37,265 bases of DNA, taken from a virus. The notes beneath the pieces were generated by a model. That model had not been told where the DNA came from, made no database searches, and worked only from the letters and a program-made list of their open reading frames with translations. Position numbers and translations under genes: made by a program. Where the stretch lies: the IMG/VR virus record IMGVR_UViG_3300043409_001534, positions 1 through 37,265 of that record; one strand, given 5' to 3'. Of this stretch, positions 1 through 32,638 are shown piece by piece; the first letter of the stretch is position 1; each line of letters starts with the position of its first letter.

Positions 1-3000
1 CCTCTCTGATCAATGAGTTAGCGTTATGAGAAACAGCAGTAGTGCCAAGAGCGCCCCTTTCGGCAGATAAAAAGTTAAGGCTGTTTTTACTTGAATATTT
101 AATAATTTCACTATCAATAACAATATACCCAGAAGTTGGAAATGGAACAAGGTCAAAACTAGAAGCAGACACAGTGTTAGCCGAATTACTTAGATTTGAC
201 ATAAGAGTTACAACACCAAGAGTGGTGGGTTCTGGCGCTCTCCAAATAGGTTGAGTCTCATTAGTGTTGGCAACAACTCCAGATATTTTTACAATTACAC
301 TGTTAATTTGCAAAGTTTTTTGAATAGAAGCATCAACAATAAAATCTTCATCAGAAATAATTTTTTGCACATTTGCATGTTGATCTATTGACGGTTCAAA
401 AAATTCGTAGTAGTTGTCATATCTAATATTGTCATTCTCATCAATAAAAATTCTTCCAAGATCACCAAAAGTGATGTTTTGAATGGCCTGATAAATAGAT
501 TCATTTATGCTATATAGGAAAGCAAATTTTTTTATTTCTTTTATTTGTGTTTCACGGTATCTTTTTAAAACATTTGTTGGCGATATACACTTATTATATA
601 TAATAAATTCATCAACATAAAGATTTATACCAGAAACATTGACTGATGAAGTTGGCTTAACTACTCCAACACCAGAAGTAAATGACGCACCTCTCCCGCC
701 AAATGTTAAAGAATTTGTCCCAAAATTTGGTTGATAACTACTTGTTAAAGTAGAACTACCATGCTGTACTCCATCAACATAATATTTAAGAACATTGTCA
801 GAATAATCGTAAGTAGTGACAACATGATTCCATCCAGTAGATTCTGGCATGGCTGTGGAACTTGTAATAGTAGTGGTAGCAGTTGCACTATTGGATGTAT
901 TGAGAGTTTTTATTTTAACGCCATGATTTGTTGAAGAAATGTAAAAGAATTCAATGCCAGCCGTTGATGAACTATTTGACCAACTACTTATATACTCCCC
1001 AGAAGCCCCTAGACCGCCCTGTGGTGACTTGAATATGTACTCAATAGACCAATCACGATTGATATTAGTAGAATTTGATGTTACATCCCAAGAAACGTCA
1101 TATGGCAATCTAATAAAGGAATCAACCGTTGATCCGCCAGATATGGCGTTAGACAAATAAACACTTTTATCATCAGTGTTCCAATCCATAGACGACCCAT
1201 TGGTGAAATTAACAAAAGTACTAGGAACAGCACTATTCCTATGCCTATTCCTATTAGAACCAGTAAACCCAGCATCTCTAGAACCAATACTATCCAAAAC
1301 AACATTAGTTAACAATTCAGTAGGCCCAATTGTAGTTCTACCAGATGTAGTAGTAAGATTGAGATCAAAAGCATCTGCATTGCCAGTGTGATAAAACTCT
1401 AAACGAATTTTATAAGGGACACCAGCAGTCCAACTATAAGTAGTTGAAGTATAAGTAAGAGATGTTACTGTGTACCACTCGTTCAAGATTAGATTGTCAT
1501 CAATATACAACCTATAACCACCCTCATCAATCTCAACACCAATTTCTTCATCCACAGCAGTAGCAAGAGGTATGAAATAGCCGTCAAAAACACCTTGATA
1601 GAATTTATTATTCAAAGAAGCATCGTCATCACTCAAAAGATATGACACAAGTTCAATTCCATCTTTAACCCCAACATAAGACGGCGAAACAGAAGAAGCT
1701 ATACCAAGAGCTTTATCCAAATCAGATAAAACTTTCTCATTAACATCCAACTGCAAATCTTTAATAGTATATTCAAAACCAGAAGGTGGTTGATAAACCC
1801 TATACCTCAACCCCGGATAAACATAAGAGTTACCAGTATTTCTAGTATCATCATTAAATTTTAAATGCAGAACACCGTTCTCAACCGATGGGCTGTCCTG
1901 AAATCTATTATATTTTATAATCTTATGATTAGGAATATTGCCGAATGACAACAGATCTTCCACAGCATTACCGACCGTTGTAGTATCTTTAAAAAATCCT
2001 CTCTCTAAAACTTTATCATTCAAGAATTTGAACCTATCCTGCAAAGATAATTGCACACTCATATCGGTAGTTGAAGAAGAAGCCTCTTCAATAAAAAATG
2101 TCCCAATACTGACATAATCAAAAGGATCAAACGTTATAACAGCGCCAGAGGCATGCGCCACAGCGGTTGTCCCATCATAACCACGGCTAACAACTTCAAG
2201 CCCCCAAATATCGCTACTTATAATAACTTTTCTTTTAACAAGAATTTTTTCTTCATAAAACAAATTTTTATCTACAGTAACCACATAATAGTTAGTTTCA
2301 AGATTAGTATTAGCAGTATCCCCGTAAGGAAATTCATTCAAATTGCTAACATAAATAGTAGTAGAACTGTTTGTGATTGATGAAGTCAAATATGATTCAA
2401 CAATATTATCAACAGATTCATAAGACTTAACACCATAAGAAACATCCACTTTAACATCTTTTTGCAAATATTTACCGTAATCAGAGTTAGTATTCAAAAT
2501 ATTAAACTTCTTACTATTGTTATCTATACTTATAGTTGAAGAAGTTTGAGAAGTTCCAGCAATAGGAAGAGATGTCTCATGAAGGTCACGAATACGATCC
2601 TCTGCTGTGTCCATAACATAATCAGAAATATCCATTTGATATAAAGGAGAAACAGACACAAATCTTGCGTAGTCGGTTGGATTCTTAGTTGAAATCACCG
2701 TCAACAAAACTCTAGACACATTTGTGTAAGTATTATTCAAATTAATAGTTTTTTCAAATTCATTAATATTAGTATTAAAAGACAATGTTTCATTAAGCAA
2801 AGTTGCTGACGTGCTATCAAAAACAGCGAGGGTGAAACTTGCGATTTGACCAAAATTTTGAGATGTAACAATTTTAATTTTATTAATAGTCGTAGCAGTG
2901 AAAGAAATATCTAGAGTAGGGTTTGTGGTAAAAGTTGAATTAGAATTACTTTTACTTGCAGACCACCACCCATACTTCAAGTTATCTTGATCGTCGCTAG

Positions 3001-3295
3001 GCATAGCACGATACTTGCCATTAGCAGTAATTGTTTTATTCAAATTATCCTTAGCATCACAGACACCCCATGCGAAAGATTCATATTCAATTCCATCCAA
3101 AGCACGTTGTTTGCCAAAATATGTGCCAAGAGGAGTGGATACATTGTCGCTATTTGTAGTAATTGAAACATTGCTTAAATGCCGACCATCTTGAAAATCA
3201 ATAACAACCTTGGGCTTAACAAATTGCGAATATGAAGCTATAGCAGACTGAAAAGAATTACTTAATTGTTTTCCATCAACATCAATAGTTTGCAT
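1..3295 (-). CDS. Tail-tip / minor tail protein with PA14-like and LamG-like domains (partial, C-terminus off the left edge)
   Basis: The minus-strand frame starting at ATG 3295 has no stop down to base 1, giving at least 1098 residues. The start abuts the stop of the upstream gene and has an AGGAG 7 nt before it. Residues about 1-230 look like a beta-rich minor-tail N-terminus with a discoidin-like stretch (WWSASKSN). Near residue 390 is a tail-type RGYDGTTAVAHASG module, repeated near the left edge as ERGALGTTAVSHNA. Residues about 555-640 match a PA14-like pattern (DGYF, EGGYRLYIDDNLILNEW, YKIRLEFYH). Residues about 700-915 match a LamG/concanavalin-like domain (GWNHVVTTYDY, LKYYVDGVQHG, VDEFIIYN). 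Both folds bind carbohydrate in other proteins, so receptor or surface-glycan binding at the tail tip is inferred. Its place after tape measure and minor tail genes fits that. Confidence 0.8.
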   Translation of the reverse strand, partial: MQTIDVDGKQLSNSFQSAIASYSQFVKPKVVIDFQDGRHLSNVSITTNSDNVSTPLGTYFGKQRALDGIEYESFAWGVCDAKDNLNKTITANGKYRAMPSDDQDNLKYGWWSASKSNSNSTFTTNPTLDISFTATTINKIKIVTSQNFGQIASFTLAVFDSTSATLLNETLSFNTNINEFEKTINLNNTYTNVSRVLLTVISTKNPTDYARFVSVSPLYQMDISDYVMDTAEDRIRDLHETSLPIAGTSQTSSTISIDNNSKKFNILNTNSDYGKYLQKDVKVDVSYGVKSYESVDNIVESYLTSSITNSSTTIYVSNLNEFPYGDTANTNLETNYYVVTVDKNLFYEEKILVKRKVIISSDIWGLEVVSRGYDGTTAVAHASGAVITFDPFDYVSIGTFFIEEASSSTTDMSVQLSLQDRFKFLNDKVLERGFFKDTTTVGNAVEDLLSFGNIPNHKIIKYNRFQDSPSVENGVLHLKFNDDTRNTGNSYVYPGLRYRVYQPPSGFEYTIKDLQLDVNEKVLSDLDKALGIASSVSPSYVGVKDGIELVSYLLSDDDASLNNKFYQGVFDGYFIPLATAVDEEIGVEIDEGGYRLYIDDNLILNEWYTVTSLTYTSTTYSWTAGVPYKIRLEFYHTGNADAFDLNLTTTSGRTTIGPTELLTNVVLDSIGSRDAGFTGSNRNRHRNSAVPSTFVNFTNGSSMDWNTDDKSVYLSNAISGGSTVDSFIRLPYDVSWDVTSNSTNINRDWSIEYIFKSPQGGLGASGEYISSWSNSSSTAGIEFFYISSTNHGVKIKTLNTSNSATATTTITSSTAMPESTGWNHVVTTYDYSDNVLKYYVDGVQHGSSTLTSSYQPNFGTNSLTFGGRGASFTSGVGVVKPTSSVNVSGINLYVDEFIIYNKCISPTNVLKRYRETQIKEIKKFAFLYSINESIYQAIQNITFGDLGRIFIDENDNIRYDNYYEFFEPSIDQHANVQKIISDEDFIVDASIQKTLQINSVIVKISGVVANTNETQPIWRAPEPTTLGVVTLMSNLSNSANTVSASSFDLVPFPTSGYIVIDSEIIKYSSKNSLNFLSAERGALGTTAVSHNANSLIRE

Positions 3296-3808
3296 TTATA
3301 TCTCCTGAAAAGATACAGAACAATTCCAATAATATTCATTATTGTTTAAATCTCTTCTTATTAGAGTCTCAGAGTAATCCATAACTAATACATTATACTC
3401 TTCATTCGTATGAACAGTAAGACCATTTGTATTTAAATTTCTAATTTTTAAAGTATGACTTCTAGGGTCTGAACACAAGGCTTTAACGACATCTCGACCA
3501 GCATGAAAATCAACAGTATTGTCTCTTTTGCCCGGAAGAAATGACCATTCAATATTAAAACTTGCTTTATTTTTTGATGTTTTAAAATAAACAGTTCTTG
3601 CACCTAAAGAATTAGTATTAACACTATATTTAGGACTCTGAGTAAGGGAAAAAGACCTATTATGTTCACTTAGAGGAATATTATCTAAAATAAAAAAAGG
3701 TTTAATATCTCTAGAATCTTCGCTAGTTCCAGCCCTCAAAATATCTATTGAACTAACAAGAACTTTTACACTTGTAGATATACTTGATGATGCGTTATAA
3801 CTAGCCAT
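3296..3808 (-). CDS. Minor tail protein (distal tail region), 170 aa, paralogue of the next gene
   Basis: A 170-aa protein whose ATG overlaps the stop of the upstream gene (TAATG). It carries the signature of a common siphovirus minor tail family: EHNRSF near residue 50, FNIEW and LPGK, then VDFHAGRD, a YSETLIRRD segment and a YYWNCSVSFQEI end. The same landmarks occur in the same order in the neighbouring 131-aa protein, so the two are probably a tandem duplication. This copy has an extra N-terminal segment of about 45 residues. The position between tape measure and the large tail-tip protein is where distal tail proteins are encoded, so a structural role at the tail end is likely. The exact role (Dit-like or other) is not shown by the sequence. 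Confidence 0.7.
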   Translation of the reverse strand: MASYNASSSISTSVKVLVSSIDILRAGTSEDSRDIKPFFILDNIPLSEHNRSFSLTQSPKYSVNTNSLGARTVYFKTSKNKASFNIEWSFLPGKRDNTVDFHAGRDVVKALCSDPRSHTLKIRNLNTNGLTVHTNEEYNVLVMDYSETLIRRDLNNNEYYWNCSVSFQEI

Positions 3809-4203
3809 TACAACTCTTCCATAGTTAAATCAACATCGTAATATCGGCATTGACTTTGCAAAACATTTTTTAACATATTTTCACTATAACTAGTAATTAA
3901 ACAATTATAATTCTTATAAATATCTTTTTCATCACCCTGAATGGATAAAACCACCACAGCGCCCGCATCAACAAGGCCACGCAAAAAATCTCTACCAGAT
4001 AACTCGTCAACGGTTTGAGAGGCTTTATTCGGCAAATACAACCAAGAAAAATTAAAAGAATTCTTTTTAGGTTTATAGAATCTCCTCATATCGCCAGAAG
4101 CAAGTTCAACATCATTATTGTTAAAAACCAGAGATCCGCTAAAAGTTCTATTGTGCTCAGTTATTTCTGTACCATTAATTTTAATTAAAGAATTAAGAAT
4201 CAT
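3808..4203 (-). CDS. Minor tail protein (distal tail region), 131 aa
   Basis: A 131-aa protein directly after the tape measure gene; its ATG overlaps the tape measure stop (TAATG). Landmarks are TEHNRTFSG near residue 17, FNFSWLYLPNK, TVDELSGRDFL, TSYSEN and a YYDVDLTMEEL end. The F-x-W-x-Y-LP, GRD, SYSE and C-terminal acidic pattern is one I associate with actinophage minor tail proteins (from memory, not searched). It is a clear paralogue of the following 170-aa protein. It probably forms part of the distal tail or baseplate hub together with that paralogue. Confidence 0.7.
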   Translation of the reverse strand: MILNSLIKINGTEITEHNRTFSGSLVFNNNDVELASGDMRRFYKPKKNSFNFSWLYLPNKASQTVDELSGRDFLRGLVDAGAVVVLSIQGDEKDIYKNYNCLITSYSENMLKNVLQSQCRYYDVDLTMEEL

Positions 4204-14421: not shown

Positions 14422-14511
14422 TCAACAGTCGCATTCCTCGCATCCACAATCACAATGCTCAACGCAATCACATCCGCAATCACACGTTTTATTTTTCAAG
14501 TCGGTATCCAT
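14422..14511 (-). CDS. Tiny cysteine-rich peptide (29 aa), possible metal binder
   Basis: A very short ORF. Its ATG 14511 overlaps the endolysin stop by one base (TGATG), and its own stop lies inside the SD region of the connector gene (TGAGGTTTAAATG). That is a typical coupled arrangement. The 29 residues hold nine cysteines in a near-symmetrical pattern: CDCGCDC, a VEH spacer, CDCGC, EE, CDC. All partners are Asp, Gly, Glu or His. The composition resembles metallothionein-like or Zn/Fe-binding peptides; alternatively it may be a disulfide-rich peptide. No similar family is recognised. That it is translated is inferred from junctions and bias, not shown. Confidence 0.6.
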   Translation of the reverse strand: MDTDLKNKTCDCGCDCVEHCDCGCEECDC

Positions 14512-15323
14512 CAGCCAAACATTTTTTTCCAAGTAGTAGGACCAACTACGCCATCAGCAGTCAAGCCGTTGGCTGTTTGCCACACCTTCAAGGATTCAAC
14601 AGACTTAGGGCCAAAATCACCATCGGATTTGGCACCAATCATCGCTTGAACCAATGATGCGCCCGTACCTTGAGAACCTAAACTCACGGGAGTTCCAGGA
14701 TAATCAAACTTCATTGGACCAGCCTCTACAGAACCGCCAGAAGGCTTTAAAATCTCTGTTGACGCTTGTACAGACCCATCAGGGGCATTATCGCCAAGAC
14801 AATATTGCCAATGCCATGCCTCAAATTCTTTAGAAGAAGAATCTGAACCCTGCAAATAAAAACCATACTTAGGCGCATTAGCGCACATCCACTCAAAACA
14901 TTTTCCACCCATTGAGGTAAGTCTGCCATTAGCGTCGTAGGCTAAATCAATTGCTAGTCCCCAGCCGTGATTAGAACCCTTAAGACCTGTAGGGTCTGGA
15001 GTAGCAGAAGGAGCTTTACCCTTCTTTAGATACCAAGTCTTACCCTCAAAGTTTCGGGTTACACCAGTACCAGTATTTTCAAGCACATAACGATCACGGA
15101 ACATCGCCAGCTGACTTGCAAAGGAGCGATAGTCTCCAACATTCTTTAATTTAAAACCTGCAACCAAAGCTGCATCATACATCTTATTAAATTGCGCAGC
15201 AACAGGCTTGTACATCTGTCCACCAGTGTTAACTTTTGCCAAAAGTGAAGGATCTAACTGTCCATTCTTATATTTTTTAAGAGCAGTTGGAACAACTAAC
15301 TTTATTGAAGGGTATTGACTCAT
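14511..15323 (-). CDS. Endolysin: M15-type peptidase plus peptidoglycan-binding domain
   Basis: A 270-aa lysin. Residues about 40-180 are a VanY-like M15 D,D-carboxypeptidase/endopeptidase domain: GSNHGWGLAIDLA gives His119 and Asp126 (H-x6-D), and AWHWQYC gives His171, the third zinc ligand. Residues about 200-270 are a PG_binding_1 repeat (SDGDFGPKSVESLKVWQ, LTADGVVGPTTWKKMFG). No signal peptide is seen, so a holin is needed for release. The start ATG 15323 has an AGGAG 11 nt upstream. The stop overlaps the 29-aa Cys-rich ORF. Two membrane-protein genes (holin candidates) lie immediately upstream. Confidence 0.92.
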   Translation of the reverse strand: MSQYPSIKLVVPTALKKYKNGQLDPSLLAKVNTGGQMYKPVAAQFNKMYDAALVAGFKLKNVGDYRSFASQLAMFRDRYVLENTGTGVTRNFEGKTWYLKKGKAPSATPDPTGLKGSNHGWGLAIDLAYDANGRLTSMGGKCFEWMCANAPKYGFYLQGSDSSSKEFEAWHWQYCLGDNAPDGSVQASTEILKPSGGSVEAGPMKFDYPGTPVSLGSQGTGASLVQAMIGAKSDGDFGPKSVESLKVWQTANGLTADGVVGPTTWKKMFG

Positions 15324-15383: not shown

Positions 15384-15620
15384 TTACTTTTTGCCCTCAA
15401 TGCCAGTAAAGGCTTCATCAATTTCTTTCATAGTTAACTGACCATCAAGAGAAGCTCTTGCCAATTTAATAAATACTTCAGAGCAGGCCGTGAACCCAGC
15501 AAGCAGGGCTGCCTTCCAAATAGGAATATCTCCAAGCATAGAAGCACCACCAATAATTGGTAGAGATGAAACAATAAATACTGCCCCTATTCTTTGGGCA
15601 ATAGTTTGAACTTTATTCAT
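15384..15620 (-). CDS. Small membrane protein, holin candidate (78 aa)
   Basis: A 78-aa protein with two hydrophobic segments (IGAVFIVSSLPIIGGASML, then IWKAALLAGFTACSEVFIKL) and a charged C-terminus containing DGQLTMKEIDEAF. The size, membrane segments and position directly before the endolysin fit a holin. An AAGGAGG 9 nt before ATG 15620 lies within the end of the previous small gene. The C-terminal DG-x-LT-x-x-EI pattern recurs in small phage membrane proteins next to lysins (from memory). Function is by context. Confidence 0.6.
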   Translation of the reverse strand: MNKVQTIAQRIGAVFIVSSLPIIGGASMLGDIPIWKAALLAGFTACSEVFIKLARASLDGQLTMKEIDEAFTGIEGKK

Positions 15621-15621
15621 A

Positions 15622-15801
15622 TTACTTATCCTCCTTCTTTACAAGAACACCAAATAGGTGAACTGATAAAGCAATAATACTAATATAAATACCATATTTT
15701 TTAACATCACCAGAAAGAGTGATTAGCACTAGTGCTGTTCCAGCAATTGTCCATGCTAAAGAATGACTTTCAGTAACCAATTTTTTAATAATATTTTTCA
15801 C
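15622..15801 (-). CDS. Small membrane protein, second holin candidate (59 aa)
   Basis: A short gene starting at GTG 15801 with a strong AAGGAG 6-7 nt upstream. The start overlaps the stop of the 522-aa gene (GTGA). The protein has a basic N-terminus (KNIIKKLV), a first hydrophobic segment (LAWTIAGTALVLITLS), a short polar turn (GDVKKYG), a second (IYISIIALSVHLFGVLV) and a KKEDK tail. A two-helix hairpin beside another membrane protein and an endolysin suggests a holin or antiholin partner. It could also be an unrelated membrane peptide. Confidence 0.7.
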   Translation of the reverse strand: MKNIIKKLVTESHSLAWTIAGTALVLITLSGDVKKYGIYISIIALSVHLFGVLVKKEDK

Positions 15802-17366
15802 TTTACTCTCCTTCCATTTCTGGATTCAGCCTTGCCAGATTGAGGCAATGGCATAGCTGATGCCAATACTGCGCCAGCTGCAACAACAATTCTTCTTTGG
15901 GCTACAGATATCTCTGAACCTATTGGAGCATAATTATCAAAAGCCCCATCAAAAACATTTATTTCCGCCTCAAAAGAAGATCTAACTTCCTCTGGGGAAT
16001 CTTGAACAGCATTAACAATTGCTTCACCCTGCTCATCAGTTAAATCACCAACAGAGACTTCAGCAAAAATTTCTGATGCCTGATCACCCGTAATAGAACT
16101 CAAGACCTCAGCACTTGTTGAAATACTTAACGCCTGAGTTTCATCAATCCCATTATCAATAATTGAATCAACTGCTTCTTGAACTTGATCATCTGTGACT
16201 GTATCGCCACCCAATACATCAATAAGACTATTAAAAGCCTGTTCGGACAATGCGCTATCTAAAATTGCACTAATAGCCGATGTGAATTCTTCATCCGATA
16301 GTTCCTCATCAAAGACTTGATTTACTAATTCTTCAAACCCCTCATCAGACAATGGTTGACTAAATATTGATTTAATAACTGAATCAAACTGTTCTGCATT
16401 AAGATCTGAATTCAACAAGTCCGAGGCTATACTCAGCAATTCCTCTTCCGATTCTGCATCACCCAAAGCCTCATCCACTACAGAGGCAATCTCTTCTGCT
16501 GTCAAGTTTTCATCAGTAATGTTATTTATTAAATCTTTGTTGTCTGTCGGCTCATCAACAATGGTATCTACAGGGATATCCACAGGGGGTTCAATGATTG
16601 TTTCTGGTGTTGTTATTTCCTCTTCTGGGACAGAAACCTGTTCTGGCTCAGTAGTTGTTATAAAAGTTGTCTCAGGCGGTTCTACGGTGGTCTCAGGCTC
16701 AATAAAAGGTGCTTCCGTGGTTGACGTTGTTGGTGTTTCCGTAGTTAAAGTTGTTGGAACTTCTGTAGTTGAAGTTGTCGGGGTTTCCGTAGTTGTTGAG
16801 GTAGTAGTATCTATTTCTGGTTCAGTGGTCTGTACGGTAGTACTGCTGGATGTTGTACTGTCAGGAATAGTAGTAGAGGCAGTAGTGCTAGTAGTGCTAG
16901 TGGTAGCAACGTCAGTAGTAGTAGTTTCTTCAATTGGACCTCCTATTGTAGTAGTTGTACTATTTTGTAATCCATTAAAGGATAACTCGTATTGAATATT
17001 CCAAACCCCAGAAGGATCAGATCGCCAAACATCAGGTTGATAACAGCATGTTGATGCTCTTAGACGATAATTACCTGCACCAATATCCATCTCAATATTT
17101 GATTGCAAACCATAAAAGTCGTCATTAGTGAATAGTAACTCACCAGTATCAACATTATAAAGCCAAAGTTGGGGATCTGACGGAAATGTATCAGATTGAT
17201 ATGTTCTCGCCAAAAAATGTGTTGGCTCTGAATAAGAAAAAAAGAAATCAGTTGGCTCTGTAATAATGTATGAATCTGATGCTTGGACTTTAAATGATGG
17301 GAAAAAAGATATAACAACTAAAGATATTGGTAAGAACCTTAAAACTTTTCTAGTCAAATTAAACAT
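15798..17366 (-). CDS. Secreted Thr-rich protein of unknown function (522 aa)
   Basis: ATG 17366 has a GGAG about 8 nt upstream. Residues 1-29 are a clear signal peptide (NLTRKVLRFLPISLVVISFF, with VQA before the likely cut). Residues about 30-130 are a beta-rich domain resembling pre-peptidase C-terminal modules (GNYRLRAST, DPSGVWNIQY). Residues about 135-260 are a low-complexity Thr/Ser/Pro/Glu linker (repeats such as TTSTTEVPTT). Residues about 275-460 are acidic helical repeats (LSDEEFTSAISAIL and related units). The end is a hydrophobic stretch (IVVAAGAVLASAM) followed by LPQSG and a basic tail. It lies between fibres and holins, so wall or membrane work during lysis, surface display and superinfection exclusion are all possible. 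Function is unknown. Confidence 0.8.
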   Translation of the reverse strand: MFNLTRKVLRFLPISLVVISFFPSFKVQASDSYIITEPTDFFFSYSEPTHFLARTYQSDTFPSDPQLWLYNVDTGELLFTNDDFYGLQSNIEMDIGAGNYRLRASTCCYQPDVWRSDPSGVWNIQYELSFNGLQNSTTTTIGGPIEETTTTDVATTSTTSTTASTTIPDSTTSSSTTVQTTEPEIDTTTSTTTETPTTSTTEVPTTLTTETPTTSTTEAPFIEPETTVEPPETTFITTTEPEQVSVPEEEITTPETIIEPPVDIPVDTIVDEPTDNKDLINNITDENLTAEEIASVVDEALGDAESEEELLSIASDLLNSDLNAEQFDSVIKSIFSQPLSDEGFEELVNQVFDEELSDEEFTSAISAILDSALSEQAFNSLIDVLGGDTVTDDQVQEAVDSIIDNGIDETQALSISTSAEVLSSITGDQASEIFAEVSVGDLTDEQGEAIVNAVQDSPEEVRSSFEAEINVFDGAFDNYAPIGSEISVAQRRIVVAAGAVLASAMPLPQSGKAESRNGRRVK

Positions 17367-17452: not shown

Positions 17453-18808
17453 TTAAGTGTATGTTAAAAATACTGTACCTGAATAGACACTGTATGGGTT
17501 GTTATTTGTTGAAACTGTTAACCCTCGTAAGAACGCAACAGTAGTGCTATGTCCTGTTAAAGCAAATCCATAGGCTGTACCATCGCCCAGGGCTGATAAT
17601 TGGTTGGCGGAGAGAGCAGGTTGACCAGTACCATCGTTACCTGTTATAGAACTTGTTATTGTTCCTGTAATATAAGAAAGCGCACCCGACTTTGTAGGTG
17701 AAGTGTGCGCCCTGATGGTGAAGGTTCCTGAGTTTCCTCTGTTTGTTTGTGCAGAACCTGCTCGTTGAAGCCAGATTGAACCGCTATCAGGTGCCCAGCC
17801 GCGAGTTTTGTCTGAGAACGCTGTTGAGCCATAGAACCAAGCGCCATATAGTTTTGTCGTAGAAAAACCGACCATGCCTTCGTCTGATGTTGTTTGGCTC
17901 AACCACGCTGTGTTACCTATGTTGCGAGCATCGGCTCCAGTAGGTACGAACGAATAATCGCCAAGCGGTTTAGTGTAATGGTTGTTTGCTGCTGTACCTT
18001 GTAGTGAGTTTCCAGCAGCATCAATAGCAATAATGTAATAGGTAACAATCCAAGTTTCACCTGTAGGCGTGTTGCGTCTGTTTGTAGGAATAGCAAAAGT
18101 TGTTCCAGTAGTATTAGCACCGAACGAAACAAGATTTGTTGATGTTCCTCCGACAAATCCGCTTGTTGTACCATAATAGAGTTGATTAATCGTTGCTGAA
18201 GCGACACCAGAACCTGCATCTGTAATAGCACCCCAAGAAACGGTGTCTGTAGTTCCGCTAGTTGCTACAACTGTCGGTGTAGGTACGACAGGGTTTGTTA
18301 TGTCATATCTTAAAGTTGCAGCAGCAGTTGACCCTGTGCCTTGTGTTGAGTTCCCAGCAGCATCAGTTGCAATAATGTAGTAGGTAACACTCCAAGACTC
18401 TCCAGTATCACCTTGTCGCCTATTTGTGGGGATAGCAAAAGTTGTATTGCTTGCACCAAATGAACCAAGAGCCTGCGATGTCCCTGCAACAAAACCACTT
18501 ACTGAACCAGAATACAACTGATAGATGGTTGCTGAAGCAACACCCGAGCCTGCATCTGTAATAGCACCCCAAGAAACGGTGTCTACTTGGTTATTAGCAT
18601 TCATACTTCCTGAAGTTGCTCTTGTAGGTGTAGGAACTACAGGTCCAGTATTGTCAAACTGATGGACAAGAACATAAGTACTAGCGCCTGTCTGAAGATA
18701 CACCGCCTCCGCGCGATCGTAAGTTGATGCGCCTGTCTGAACAAATAATCCTTTCGTTCCTGTAAGTTCTGTGTAAGTTGATGAGCCTGTTTGAATGTGT
18801 ATTGCCAT
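17453..18808 (-). CDS. Fibre-like protein with Ig/fibronectin-type repeats (451 aa)
   Basis: I chose ATG 18808 because it overlaps the stop of the upstream fibre gene (TAATG); a TTG five codons earlier lies inside that gene. The N-terminus holds three short tandem units, each about 15 residues and built on QTG(A/S)STY. Then come two tandem beta-sandwich repeats of about 112 residues (DTVSWGAITDAGSGVASATI in both; AIPTNRR; VTYYIIATDAAGNS). A C-terminal beta-rich domain of about 160 residues ends TVFLTYT. The QTGASTY unit echoes [12 protein letters not shown] in the upstream fibre, suggesting a shared base. The likely role is a host-contact fibre or adhesin. Confidence 0.7.
   Translation of the reverse strand: MAIHIQTGSSTYTELTGTKGLFVQTGASTYDRAEAVYLQTGASTYVLVHQFDNTGPVVPTPTRATSGSMNANNQVDTVSWGAITDAGSGVASATIYQLYSGSVSGFVAGTSQALGSFGASNTTFAIPTNRRQGDTGESWSVTYYIIATDAAGNSTQGTGSTAAATLRYDITNPVVPTPTVVATSGTTDTVSWGAITDAGSGVASATINQLYYGTTSGFVGGTSTNLVSFGANTTGTTFAIPTNRRNTPTGETWIVTYYIIAIDAAGNSLQGTAANNHYTKPLGDYSFVPTGADARNIGNTAWLSQTTSDEGMVGFSTTKLYGAWFYGSTAFSDKTRGWAPDSGSIWLQRAGSAQTNRGNSGTFTIRAHTSPTKSGALSYITGTITSSITGNDGTGQPALSANQLSALGDGTAYGFALTGHSTTVAFLRGLTVSTNNNPYSVYSGTVFLTYT
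18213..18584 (-). repeat. In-frame tandem repeat of about 336 bp inside the fibre gene
   Basis: A 36-base stretch at 18213-18248 is identical to one at 18549-18584. The copies are 336 bases (112 codons) apart and in the same frame. They encode the same segment of two consecutive Ig-like repeats, with flanking bases also similar. This favours recent duplication and makes the copy number changeable by recombination. Confidence 0.85.
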
Positions 18809-20997
18809 TAATAAACAATCCAAATGTCGCCGACTGCTCCACCCGTTGTCGGCGCAGTTTGCGTGATCCTAATCTTTGATGATGTTGGGGTAGTCAAGTT
18901 TGTTTGCCCAATAGTTACAACAGCACCGACACTTCCGTTGCCTGCCGTGACTGCGCTTGCTGTAGAGGCAGTACCTGTTAATGAAGCAGTAATAGTTCCA
19001 GCAGCAAAGTTACCTGAACCATCACGCATCACAATTGTTGAAACAGTGTTTGCAGATGCTTGACCATTACCTGTGATGACACCGTTAATTACTGGAGTAG
19101 TCAATGTTTTGTTTGTTAAAGTTTCGGTGCCAGCAAGAGTAACCAAAGTACCAGTGGTGGGTAAAGTTACGGTTGTAGCAGCAGTCGCAGTTAAAGTAGT
19201 ATCAAAAGCGCCAGAGGTAGTTAAGTTTCCACCAAGAGTAATTGTTTTACCAGTATTGGTGACTCCTGTACCACCATACTGGCCAGCGATAACAGTACCA
19301 TTCCATGCGCCTGCAAATGCTGTAGCAGTAACGGTACCAGTTACATCCAATGCTGTTGCTGGGGCAGTGTTCAGAATACCTACGCGAGCCGTTGAATCAA
19401 TAGTTAATACTTCACTACCATTTGTGAAAATTGCGACATCAGACGCGCGAGTAGCGTGAGTATTCCCAAACAGATACATGTTTCCGCCAACATTTACTTC
19501 GTCGGGGATACCACCACTAATACGCAAACCATGTGATTCAGAAATGGAACCAATCAAACCTAGATTGGTCGTACCAGCAAGCAAGACACCAGCACTATTT
19601 ACCTCAACATGAAGGCGTGCTGCTGGTGAGGCAGTGCCGATACCAACACGATTGGCGGATGTATCAACAAATAGAATATTTGTATCTACCGCCAAATTAC
19701 CAGTAACCGCTAAAGAATCTAGAGTACTAACAGAAGTAATCCCTGTTTGAGCAGCATTGACTGACAGCGTGTTGCCAGACTTGGATAAACCAGTACCAGC
19801 AGTGATTTGACCTGCGCCAGAGAACTGTGTGAAAGAAAGTGATGTTGTACCAAGAGTTATCGCGTCGTTGGTTGTGAGCACATAGCCCATGTCGGCACTA
19901 ACCGTTCCTTCAGAAACAAAGACATACATTCCACTTGTAACTTTTGCTGATGTATTTGCATCTGTAGCCCTTGATGCTGCTCCAGATGCTACAACAACAT
20001 AGATACCGTTTTCTGCGCCTGTTGTTTGGTTTTTAAGTAGAACACGGTCGCCTGTTGCTACAACTACACCATCAATTGTTGAGGCGTTTATAAGGGCAGA
20101 AGCAATCGCAATGTTTACCGTTGATGCGACCCTAACTGAATCTTTAATATCTAGGCTTTGTGTAATGGCATCGGCGTAGGCTTTAGTGACAGCATCTGTT
20201 GAGTTTGTCGGAGTTGGAACTGTCACAGTTCCTGTGAAAGTTGTATTAGCTAAAGTTGCATTGGCAGCAAATACTAATGATCCAGTACCAGTTTCATCAG
20301 AAATAACTCCGAGCAGTTGAGCAGAAGTTGTTGCTGCAAATTGACTGAGAGTTGCAGTAGTCAAAGCAACATTGGAAATTGCACCACTGGCACCATTGAC
20401 AGTAGTGACAACTGTGCCAGATGTCAAATAAGTATTAGTATCCAATGACCAAGTATCCGCTGCGGTTTTCTTAAGCAATCCCGAAGTACCAGCAAGAGCA
20501 GCAATAGCTGCAAGGTCCGCATCATACGCTTGAACATTCGTACCAATGGCTAAGCCAAGTGTAGTTCGTTGCGCTGAAGCATCAGCGTCATCAACTAACG
20601 CACGCCCTGCTACTGTAAAATCAGCAAGCGCTGCTGTACCAGAACCAGTAAAGTAAGGTAATTTATTTGCTGCTGAAGTTAAACCAGCAATAGCAGTAAG
20701 ATTAGAATCTAACGGTTGAAAAGTACTGGCGGTTACAGCAATTGTTGGAGTAGCACCCTCACCAGAGTTGTTAGTAATAGTTATTCCAGTACCAGCAACC
20801 AAAGAAGAAACATAAGAACCCGTAGTATCTGTACCAAGAGAAATGTTGGACTTTAAAAAATCTACAGTAGAAGCCCCTGTTTTAAAATATAGTTTTCCAT
20901 CAACATAATTTAAAGCAAGTTCACCAAACTGCAAAGAAGCAGCAGATGGAACATTAGCGCCCGTACCACTATTTTTAATTTTTATGGTATTAGCCAT
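18808..20997 (-). CDS. Tail fibre / adhesin (729 aa), paralogue of the upstream fibre
   Basis: A long Thr/Ala/Gly-rich fibre. The N-terminus [13 protein letters not shown] with [19 protein letters not shown] is a common phage fibre opening. The body has [54 protein letters not shown] and a middle segment with [20 protein letters not shown]. Further on is [15 protein letters not shown], a motif seen near chaperone or knob regions of fibres, and it ends with a trimer-like GTVT repeat stretch. An AGAGG about 5 nt before ATG 20997 is the SD. Large segments match the 643-aa fibre upstream. The likely role is host recognition. Confidence 0.8.
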
Positions 20998-21006
20998 TGA
21001 AACCTC

Positions 21007-22938
21007 TTAGAAAGTTCCGCCATCAACCGTAGTCGTATCAAGCGTGATACCACTAATACTACCACCAGTGATACTCACATTGTTTGAGTTTTGAGTAGAA
21101 ATTGTTCCAAGACCCAAAGTTGTTCTAGCAGTAGAAGCATCAGCATCATCAAGCAAAGTTCTCATAAATGACGTTAATGTAGTTACAGAAGCAGTACCAG
21201 ACCCCGTAAAATAAGGCAGAGCATCAGCAGTACTAGTTAGACCAGCAAGAGCAGCAAGTTCTGCGTCATATGCCTGAACGTTTGTGCCGATTACTAAACC
21301 AAGAGAAGTACGAGCTCCCGCAGCATCAGTTGCATTTGTACCACCATATCCTAAACCTATTACCGAACCCTGCCATACACCAGTGCCGATTATACCAACA
21401 GAAGTAAGGCTTGATGCTGTAATGCCCGTACCAAGAGTTGTTCCATTAAGTACAGACGTACCGTTGATGTAATAAGCTTTGCCTGTTGCAATATTAAAAT
21501 GTTCTGAAGAAGTCCATGCATCTGTTGCATCAACCCAGTTCAATGTCTTATCCGTTGTTCCCTTAAGAGTGATACCACCACCGTCTGCACTTGCATCAGT
21601 AGGTGTCACAGTAGATCCAAGTTCTAAGTTTTTATCATCCACTGTAACAGTAGTTGAGTTAACAGTTGTAGTTGTTCCATTAACAGTCAAGTTACCAGTA
21701 ATTGTAGTATTACCGCCAACAGCCAAGTCTGTAGTAATGTTAACCGAATCTGGCAAACCGACAGTCACAGAACCTGTCGAGGCACTAACTTCAATCTCAT
21801 TCGCTGTACCAGTAAGACCAGTTACACCACTGTTAGTAACAGTAGGAGTAGCGCCCTCACCAGTGTTGTTGGTAAGAGAAATACCCGTACCAGCAACAAG
21901 TGAAGAAACATAGTTGCCAGTAGTATCTGTGCCAAGAGCAACAGAGTTCGCAGCAACAGTCGCAGTAAGAGTTGCGCTACCAAGATTAGTTATAGTTGCA
22001 CTACCAGTAAGGTCACCGCCCAAAGTGATAGTGAAGTCAGCAACATCAAGATTCAACTTGGCGTTAGCATCATCATAAGTAGCACCAATACCGCTATGAG
22101 TACCGTTAGTAAACAAAGCAGCAGCAGCATCTTGAGCTGCTTCATTGAAATCAGATACAGCAGTAGAAGCAATACTGATAGCAGTATTAGAAGCAGCAGT
22201 CAAACGACCATAAGTATCCACTGTGAAAGAAGAAGTGTGAGAAGCGTTACCATGTGACCCAGCAGATACGCCAGTAGTTGTCAAAGAAAGATCTATAGCG
22301 CCATCGCCAGCGTCATCATAAGCAGCAGAAATACCAGTATGAGAGCCGTTAGTTACTAGTTGACCACCAACAACATCTTGAATAGTTTCACTACTGATAG
22401 TGATACCAGCTACGGCACCATCTACATAAGCAGTAGTAGCAACAGCCGTAGTATTATTATTTGCCGTTTGAGTGGTCGCAATAGTACCAGTTGGCAAGGT
22501 AGGGGTTCCAGAAAATGTTGGGCTTGCCAGTAGAGCAAAACCAGAGATTGAAGCACCTGAAGGGATAGTTACTGTTCCCGTAAAAGTTGGAGAAGCAAGG
22601 TCCGCCTTGAGCGCGCCAGCTGTATCTACATAAGCAGTAGTGGCAACAGCGTTAGAGTTGTTAAGAGCAGTTTTTGTTGTAGCAGTAGCATTTGATCCAA
22701 GAGTTACAAGACCAGAAAAAGTTTTATTACCAGTAACAGTTTGGATGCCAGAAAGAGTGAGAAAACCGCCATCTCCACCAATAGCAATAACAGTATTAGC
22801 ATCACCATTACCAGCAGTTCCAAACCCGTAATAAAGAACATTGTCTACTTCATTAAATGCCAGTTCAGCATTCTTTAGGGAAGCAGGTGCACCAGCAGCT
22901 CCTGTAGCCCTTCTTTTGATTCTAATTGTATTAGCCAT
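21007..22938 (-). CDS. Tail fibre / adhesin (643 aa)
   Basis: A beta-rich fibre protein starting MANTIRIKRRATGAAGAPASLKN, with ELAFNEVDNVLYYG. It carries repeated strands such as TFTGTVTIPSGAS and TATTKTALNNSNAVATTAYVD (two near-identical copies), then [20 protein letters not shown], a TVNGTTTTVNSTTVTVDD segment and [19 protein letters not shown]. The last two blocks recur in the downstream 729-aa fibre, so the genes arose by duplication. Its ATG overlaps the stop of the upstream 96-aa gene (TAATG). Confidence 0.8.
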   Translation of the reverse strand: MANTIRIKRRATGAAGAPASLKNAELAFNEVDNVLYYGFGTAGNGDANTVIAIGGDGGFLTLSGIQTVTGNKTFSGLVTLGSNATATTKTALNNSNAVATTAYVDTAGALKADLASPTFTGTVTIPSGASISGFALLASPTFSGTPTLPTGTIATTQTANNNTTAVATTAYVDGAVAGITISSETIQDVVGGQLVTNGSHTGISAAYDDAGDGAIDLSLTTTGVSAGSHGNASHTSSFTVDTYGRLTAASNTAISIASTAVSDFNEAAQDAAAALFTNGTHSGIGATYDDANAKLNLDVADFTITLGGDLTGSATITNLGSATLTATVAANSVALGTDTTGNYVSSLVAGTGISLTNNTGEGATPTVTNSGVTGLTGTANEIEVSASTGSVTVGLPDSVNITTDLAVGGNTTITGNLTVNGTTTTVNSTTVTVDDKNLELGSTVTPTDASADGGGITLKGTTDKTLNWVDATDAWTSSEHFNIATGKAYYINGTSVLNGTTLGTGITASSLTSVGIIGTGVWQGSVIGLGYGGTNATDAAGARTSLGLVIGTNVQAYDAELAALAGLTSTADALPYFTGSGTASVTTLTSFMRTLLDDADASTARTTLGLGTISTQNSNNVSITGGSISGITLDTTTVDGGTF

Positions 22939-31627: not shown

Positions 31628-32638
31628 TTAAAAGTTTTTTTCAAATTCCGTCAAGCGGGAGATCATCTTATCAGCGACATTCGCCCAAGACATCTCACCA
31701 TGAATTATTTTTGCGGAACGCAAGGTATATTTTTTAAAATCGTCATATTCGCTGACAACGTGCTCCATCAAATCAAGCAACTCGTCATAACTAGGAATAG
31801 CCCACTCTCCGACATCGCAGGCATACAGATGGTCATGGAAATCAGATTTACCCCATGTTGCTGGAAGAGGAATAGACATTTTAGCAAAATCAGCACAACC
31901 TGTTAAGTTTGTACAAATTGTGGGAAGTCCTGTAGCAATCGCCTCAAATGGAATCATTCCAAAACCTTCACCACTTGTAGGATAAACCATGCAGTGACAT
32001 TTGTGGTATAAACGCACAAGCTGATCAACGCTGAAGTTATCTGGAATACCAATAATCTGAGGATGGTTATGAGCTGGAACAATATGTCCATCTATATAAA
32101 CATCAGCAAAACAGAACTTATTGTATTTAAGAATTAACTGAAAGTCATCGTTGCCTTCATATAACTCTAAGAAAGCATCAACAACAAGCTGAGCGTTTTT
32201 TCTTTTAGAATCTCCACCAACATGAATAAAATTAAACTTACCAGTTAATTCTCTTTCATATATTGAAAAGTCATCAGATATACCATGAGGTATAACATGA
32301 ACATTGGGGTGAATGTTGTTCTTGATATAGATATCTTTAACAAATTCAGACGTAGCCCATATCTCTGAGCATCTTGACATATTATATTTCCAACTATCAG
32401 GAACAATAGTGGACTCCCAAGGAGTATATCCAATATTGTAATTATTATGTATCTGATAATAAACTGGTGGACAAAAATTTATATGAAAAGGTAACTCTTC
32501 TCTATTATAGAAGACACCGACACCTTTTTCTTGCAAAGCAAGAATTGAACTAACGGCAGCGTTTTGGTAGCCTTGACTAAACCAGCTTTCTCCGCTTAAG
32601 TCCGTGTTGTTGAGACTAAACCAGCTAACTTTCTTCAT
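31628..32638 (-). CDS. Glycosyltransferase, GT4-like (GT-B fold)
   Basis: A 336-aa GT-B enzyme. The N-terminal half includes YNIGYTPWESTIVPDSW and VIPHGISDDFSI. The C-terminal half begins FNFIHVGGDSKRKNAQLVVDA and holds the E-x7-E motif, PTSGEGFGMIPFEAIATGLP (Glu224, Glu232), which binds the sugar nucleotide in family GT4. A C-terminal helix follows (EMSWANVADKMISRL). The acceptor is unknown: phage DNA, virion protein and host surface glycan are all possible. The start ATG 32638 overlaps the preceding gene by 14 nt and has no SD, so it is likely translated by coupling. Confidence 0.88.
   Translation of the reverse strand: MKKVSWFSLNNTDLSGESWFSQGYQNAAVSSILALQEKGVGVFYNREELPFHINFCPPVYYQIHNNYNIGYTPWESTIVPDSWKYNMSRCSEIWATSEFVKDIYIKNNIHPNVHVIPHGISDDFSIYERELTGKFNFIHVGGDSKRKNAQLVVDAFLELYEGNDDFQLILKYNKFCFADVYIDGHIVPAHNHPQIIGIPDNFSVDQLVRLYHKCHCMVYPTSGEGFGMIPFEAIATGLPTICTNLTGCADFAKMSIPLPATWGKSDFHDHLYACDVGEWAIPSYDELLDLMEHVVSEYDDFKKYTLRSAKIIHGEMSWANVADKMISRLTEFEKNF

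Follow-up and report, generated by a model that had tools for sequence, protein, structure and literature searches.

One important question raised by this locus is why a virus should encode, beside its lysis genes, a large Thr-rich protein with the features of an exported polypeptide. The envelope proteins so far described from phages are mostly small and come from Gram-negative phages. The gene under study (P0001) lies in a DNA of 37,265 nucleotides (IMG/VR record IMGVR_UViG_3300043409_001534; this whole stretch is hereafter named the window), a virus record in which genes for a portal, a head protease, a tape measure, a ribonucleotide reductase, a glycosyltransferase and a thymidylate synthase are present. 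The first-pass annotation had placed here a phage-encoded protein of exported type next to the lysis genes and had offered three roles for it: an outer partner in lysis, a surface-display or exclusion protein, or captured host DNA. The exported-type protein was supported by the present analysis, and the second of these roles is retained as the preferred one. The reading that we favour is that P0001 and a small membrane protein encoded next to it form a two-component unit displaying a variable adhesive ectodomain, with the masking of receptors late in infection as its most likely use (probability about 0.5). Display of the surface protein on the infected cell is by itself likely, and masking is put forward tentatively as the purpose of the displayed module. 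The anatomy is well supported by computation, and the purpose is a reasoned guess.

The gene is real and can now be assigned to a strand: its open frame runs on the minus strand from 17366 to 15798, and the plus strand is riddled with stops across the same interval. The layout of the protein (Table 1) was read from the sequence and from an AlphaFold model that took an alignment of 14 family members as input. The signal peptide, the beta-rich domain, the long Thr/Ser/Pro linker and the tandem acidic helical repeats described by the first-pass annotation all reappeared, the repeats being modelled as an alpha-solenoid. In the fold comparison the modelled beta domain was PPC-like and also akin to collagen-binding domains (5sv5, Z 9.1 with an rmsd of 2.1 over 88 residues; 1nqj, Z 9.4). 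P0001 itself gave no match to the Pfam PPC family in a sequence profile search, and one relative (L020) exceeded the cut-off of that family. Fold comparison of the solenoid returned generic designed-repeat and HEAT/TOG-like matches only, so that no known relative is claimed for it; weak Pfam matches to Glycos_trans_3N, DUF445 and GatB_Yqey, all below the curated cut-offs, were discarded. The search of solved structures by sequence gave a best match of only 0.068, the NCBIfam search nothing beyond weak matches below the cut-offs, and the defence-system library no match for the five proteins compared with it. Residues 107 and 108 of the PPC-like domain are adjacent cysteines, invariant in the 14 sequences of alignment A4; such a pair is unusual in an exported protein of this kind.

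Table 1. Position and properties of the features of the surface gene and its neighbours in the window
Feature	Position	Strand	Size and remarks
P0001 surface protein gene	15798..17366	-	522 aa
P0001 signal-peptide-like segment	residues 1-29		basic, then hydrophobic; VQA/SD near residue 29; cleavage site by eye
P0001 PPC-like beta domain	residues 30-135		AlphaFold model, pLDDT about 70-90
P0001 Thr/Ser/Pro linker	residues about 136-275		disordered in AlphaFold model
P0001 alpha-solenoid (helical repeats)	residues 276-470		modelled, mostly pLDDT >90
P0001 conserved juxtamembrane core	residues about 465-492		EINVFDGAFDNY..GS.I.V..RR
P0001 C-terminal end			short hydrophobic segment, then basic tail
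P0003 two-helix membrane partner	15622..15801	-	59 aa, GTG start
Holin-like protein	15384..15620	-	78 aa, two hydrophobic stretches by eye
Endolysin	14511..15323	-	270 aa; VanY/M15 peptidase 3.1e-16, PG_binding_1 1.4e-09
Fibre-like gene directly upstream of P0001	17453..18823	-	judged fibre-like by eye; family matches all at 0.1 or worse
Tail-fibre/virion structural-like protein	18808..20997	-	729 aa, several PHROG structural families

Two membrane proteins and then the M15 endolysin follow P0001, in the order first described. The second of these membrane proteins bears the PHROG label 'nuclease' (phrog_26427, E 5.6e-25), which is probably a mislabel because the protein, only 78 aa long, has two hydrophobic stretches and lies in the lysis cassette. 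Among the PHROG families the endolysin is closest to one of tail tape measures, and ORFs the size of a tape measure were matched by the endolysin profile in three related phages (L173-L187), hinting that M15-type peptidase domains are common to lysins and tape measures in these phages. Upstream of P0001, fibre-like and virion structural genes (partly assigned by eye) occupy 17453-22938 on the same strand; the PHROG matches of the 729-aa protein include a family of unknown function (the best, 3.8e-36), head decoration (3.3e-31) and tail fiber (3.7e-23). A glycosyltransferase is encoded farther along the window, on the minus strand at 31628-32638 (phrog_2170, 2e-42). The best promoter-like site (17456-17428, minus) falls just upstream of P0001 and is not taken as evidence, since the promoter and terminator scan gave a total of 8 against a mean of 11.5 for shuffled sequence. 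Rfam matches and tRNA genes were absent from the window.

The first reading had overlooked the role of the two-helix protein P0003, which proved to be the key to the anatomy. Its GTG start overlaps the stop of P0001 by four bases (GTGA), as read directly from the sequence. P0003 matched the partner profile with an E value of 8.5e-22, being itself among the sequences in that profile, and it matched phrog_29041 (6.7e-09), whose label, unknown function, carries no functional information; the Pfam search gave no match. When P0003 was compared by tblastn with all phage records (2.3 Gb), the sole match was the C-terminus of a protein of the same surface family in phage DSL-LC01 (2e-5). A profile of P0003-like sequences found the partner fused to the surface gene or directly downstream of it in 91 of 92 loci. 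The 92nd (L009) has, by eye, a divergent partner with a TLSG turn that starts 10 bases past the surface gene. Since two contigs contribute a second locus each to the 92, there are 90 distinct contigs, 49 with the fused and 41 with the separate arrangement. The gap was measured in 40 of the separate cases and ranged from -86 to +80 bases, the -86 values resting on the first possible start codon; it was zero or overlapping in 15. In a tree of the core from 57 non-redundant members, well-supported branches forced at least three changes between the fused and the separate state.

The linkage was equally close in the reciprocal direction. A search with the partner alone found 510 relatives in IMG/VR, and in all 80 loci kept from these an ORF positive for the surface-protein core lay immediately 5' of the partner (80/80, with a core profile made from the first set of loci). 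A comparison by eye showed that 13 of these 80 contigs had already appeared in the first set, giving 157 distinct contigs overall. The association of the two genes is thus near-obligate, and we are confident that they constitute one functional unit. Their recurrent fusion and splitting suggests that the two proteins form a physical complex.

Of the 125 members whose 5' end is complete, 122 have a signal-like N-terminus by a simple rule (not SignalP). The three failures were judged by eye: the start of L018 is apparently truncated or misread, and L146 and L151 have a confounding upstream hydrophobic stretch. No lipobox, the mark of u-spanins and of the Llp lipoprotein, was detected by a simple pattern in 46 complete non-redundant members. 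At the other end, 54 of the 57 non-redundant members have, C-terminal to the Arg-Arg pair, a 15-residue stretch with a mean hydropathy of at least 1.6. Many members have only some 15-17 residues in this short segment; the helix was modelled with low confidence, and the Arg-Arg that precedes it is invariant. The hydrophobic C-terminus and the basic tail reported for P0001 are present, and the LPQSG motif reported with them is a one-off: the nearest relative (L002) has LPQSA, and LPx[ST]G occurs in the tail of 2 of the 57 non-redundant members. Sortase anchoring (LPXTG) was rejected, as LPQSG sits beyond the hydrophobic stretch, on the wrong side. The model of a fused form (mean pLDDT 66.8) predicts the order solenoid, TM1 (a 23-residue helix), disordered acidic linker, small hairpin, TM2 and TM3, which would place the partner in the membrane beside TM1. 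A protein standing outside the infected cell would fit this combination of a signal peptide, a stalk, a solenoid and a hydrophobic helix at the C-terminus.

The C-terminal core is highly conserved and the N-terminus is exchanged. Among 66 proteins with complete N-termini, 127 pairs had a core identity of at least 90%, and 66 of these pairs showed no detectable N-terminal similarity (8 of 32 pairs at 97% core identity or more, 58 of 95 between 90 and 97%). The N-termini of 46 members gave Pfam matches to fn3 (5), PA14 (4) and PhoD_N (2), and once each to L-type lectin, LCCL, beta-helix, EPTP and PPC; the lectin match (L043, 6.5e-41) was recovered again in a second search. Such swapping indicates that the core behaves as a constant anchor beneath exchangeable adhesive modules. 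Similarity between the ectodomain and tail proteins of the same phage was limited to fibronectin-like segments in a few loci. In three phages of 94-98 kb the ectodomain had no relative among the other ORFs of that phage, and a receptor specificity shared with the tail proteins is thus not visible there.

With P0001 as query, 10 loci were found in IMG/VR and DSL-LC01 among phage records; with the C-terminal core, IMG/VR yielded 247 relatives (the top 80 were retained), so the observation made on P0001 is not due to chance. Eight matches at E <0.001 were obtained in BFVD with the C-terminal model; seven bear names that assign them to uncultured Caudovirales, and the eighth is unnamed. These Caudovirales entries and the DSL-LC01 protein WJZ48438.1 are members of the surface family; they are annotated as hypothetical, 'TerB_like', 'Fibronectin type III' or 'PA14 domain', and never as one family or as part of a pair. 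In 84,980 bacterial and archaeal genomes, patterns from P0001 matched 29 stretches and patterns from core alignment A2 matched 60, with none confirmed in either case, and the plasmid collection gave no match. With hundreds of relatives in IMG/VR and none confirmed by these patterns in cellular genomes, a recent capture of host DNA finds no support.

A WhiB gene was found in 28 of 50 related records, many of which are fragments; in a control of 14 genomes WhiB was found in Corynebacterium glutamicum only. This agrees with the actinobacterial style first noticed in the Thr linker. WhiB was not found in the window, and the actinobacterial host of this virus is therefore deduced from its relatives and from the linker style. 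Tyrosine integrases were found neither in the window nor in any of the 50 related records, DSL-LC01 included, a result that is weak for fragments and is limited to integrases of this type; it argues against a prophage conversion gene. DSL-LC01 has been called apparently lysogenic (PMC10611076). The family is real, widespread and previously uncharacterised, and actinobacterial marker genes are present in relatives of the phages to which it belongs; the matched gene pair appears to be carried by many viruses of freshwater actinobacteria. In three loci (L003, positions 1-3900; L014; L072), inspection by eye showed nucleotidyl-sugar, methyltransferase and glycosyltransferase-like genes a short way upstream of the surface gene, and it is conceivable that the Thr-rich stalk is glycosylated.

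Literature searches found no description of the pair in titles and the beginnings of abstracts, subscription papers being mostly outside their coverage. The portion covered of a report on isolated Nanopelagicales (freshwater) phages mentions no such protein (PMC10202952), and the terms holin, secreted, cell surface, signal peptide and threonine never occur in the main text of Kavagutti et al. 2019 (PMC6802176). The closest functional parallel is Llp of phages T5 and BF23, described as a receptor-blocking protein made in the infected cell, whose gene adjoins the receptor-binding gene, which is presumed to limit the loss of progeny on debris and which has unrelated variants in close relatives (PMC4728585). 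The likeness lies in a phage-encoded envelope protein near receptor-binding genes with unrelated variants among close relatives. Llp is, however, a lipoprotein of phages with a Gram-negative host, whereas the surface family lacks a lipobox, its ectodomain is large and modular, and a two-helix protein serves as its dedicated partner. Among actinobacterial phages the closest parallel is LysZ of corynebacteriophages, a membrane-anchored lysis protein of 177 aa with one TM segment (N-in/C-out) for which contact with lipid-anchored envelope glycans has been proposed (PMC13056207). The proposed contact of a membrane-anchored protein with glycans is the point of likeness; the members of the present family differ in their size (331-1546 aa when complete), signal-like N-terminus, predicted C-terminal anchor and partner, and often have no lysis gene nearby.

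The pair may work as follows. The signal peptide would export the large protein, and its juxtamembrane core and short C-terminal helix would dock in the membrane, where the two-helix partner, as a separate product or a fused domain, would complete the anchor. The stalk and the solenoid would keep the N-terminal adhesive or glycan-binding module clear of the membrane. Late in lytic infection this module would occupy the glycans on the surface of the infected cell, which, by a logic like that of Llp, would exclude superinfecting virions and spare progeny from adhering to the cell as it dies. In this scheme the export and topology of the surface protein, its docking with the partner and the timing are inferred, as are glycan binding and masking. 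A role at surface glycans is suggested because the exchanged ends are of lectin, PA14 and PPC type and no integrase was detected in the phages, and the fibre-like genes adjoining P0001 in the window speak for a display unit. Against it stand the shortness of the C-terminal hydrophobic segment and the low confidence of its model, the invariant Arg-Arg before the helix, which is unusual for the outer face, and the lack of a receptor specificity visibly shared with the phage tail proteins.

The main rival, rather unlikely in our estimate, is a lysis helper of the LysZ type, in which the anchored, exported module would bind wall or lipid-linked glycans and destabilise the envelope at lysis, as a Gram-positive counterpart of the spanins. 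The lectin and PA14 domains among the N-termini would suit it, and so would the gene neighbourhood. Among 90 well-flanked loci (3.5 kb or more on the downstream side, 1 kb or more on the upstream side), a lysis gene of any kind was near in 60, which fits a lysis role as well as it fits display. An endolysin was present in 55, and within 1.5 kb in 45, a limit of 380 aa being applied because the profile also matches ORFs of tape-measure size; a holin-like relative of the 78-aa protein was near 41 loci and a one-TM charged protein near 38. However, no lysis gene was recognised near the other 30 loci, where fibre-like, glycosyltransferase-like or methyltransferase-like neighbours were seen by eye, and the three 94-98 kb phages, read piecewise, each have one pair with the endolysin 9-19 kb off, so that the pair is not simply a part of the lysis cassette. 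Membership in a spanin or lysis cassette through constant linkage to endolysin and holin was rejected, given those 30 loci. Taken together, these counts indicate that the pair travels on its own, often though not always with lysis genes, and they weaken the role of outer lysis partner. The members also greatly exceed LysZ in length and differ from it in orientation, and a lysis factor would not normally be expected to have its working end replaced outright. Masking is modestly favoured because the pair is not tied to the lysis genes and its working end is swapped wholesale. As a separate observation, an 85-aa protein with one TM segment and a charged tail (L088, 6164-6421), which recurs as a neighbour of the surface gene (33 of 57 non-redundant loci), resembles the one-TM holin-like proteins described for actinophages.

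An alternative that we consider improbable makes the partner a holin or antiholin gated by the ectodomain, the surface protein sensing a superinfecting virion or host density and so setting the time of lysis. Actinophage lysis cassettes encode holin-like proteins with one to four TM helices (PMC9671378), some of them predicted to be N-in/C-in (PMC9671378, PMC13056207), and P0003 is likewise small, two-helix and, in many loci, placed beside an endolysin; recurrent fusion would put ectodomain and pore on one chain. Unlike those proteins, the partner goes with the surface gene, to which it is often fused, and not with the endolysin. A separate holin-like protein exists near 41 of the 90 loci and in the window, a fused chain, which can reach 1546 aa, would make a cumbersome pore subunit, and P0003 has no Pfam match. 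Least probable is a virion component, assembled into tails and with an N-terminus that is no true signal: P0001 comes directly after fibre-like genes in the window, as would suit such a protein, but the signal-like N-terminus is nearly universal in the family, and the conserved C-terminal hydrophobic helix and the constant membrane partner also speak against it. A bolder extension of the display unit is speculative and doubtful: lytic actinophages would exchange whole adhesive or lectin modules on a shared two-part anchor, as a virus-specific machine that redresses the cell and controls adsorption, aggregation and release, the ectodomain possibly gating the partner and coupling outside conditions to lysis.

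If the display reading is true, a large modular two-gene unit may be the means by which lytic phages that infect abundant freshwater bacteria alter the host surface during infection. The swappable N-termini would then constitute a natural library of modules of sugar-binding type, and hundreds of 'hypothetical' genes could be named with the constant C-terminal core as a clean marker.
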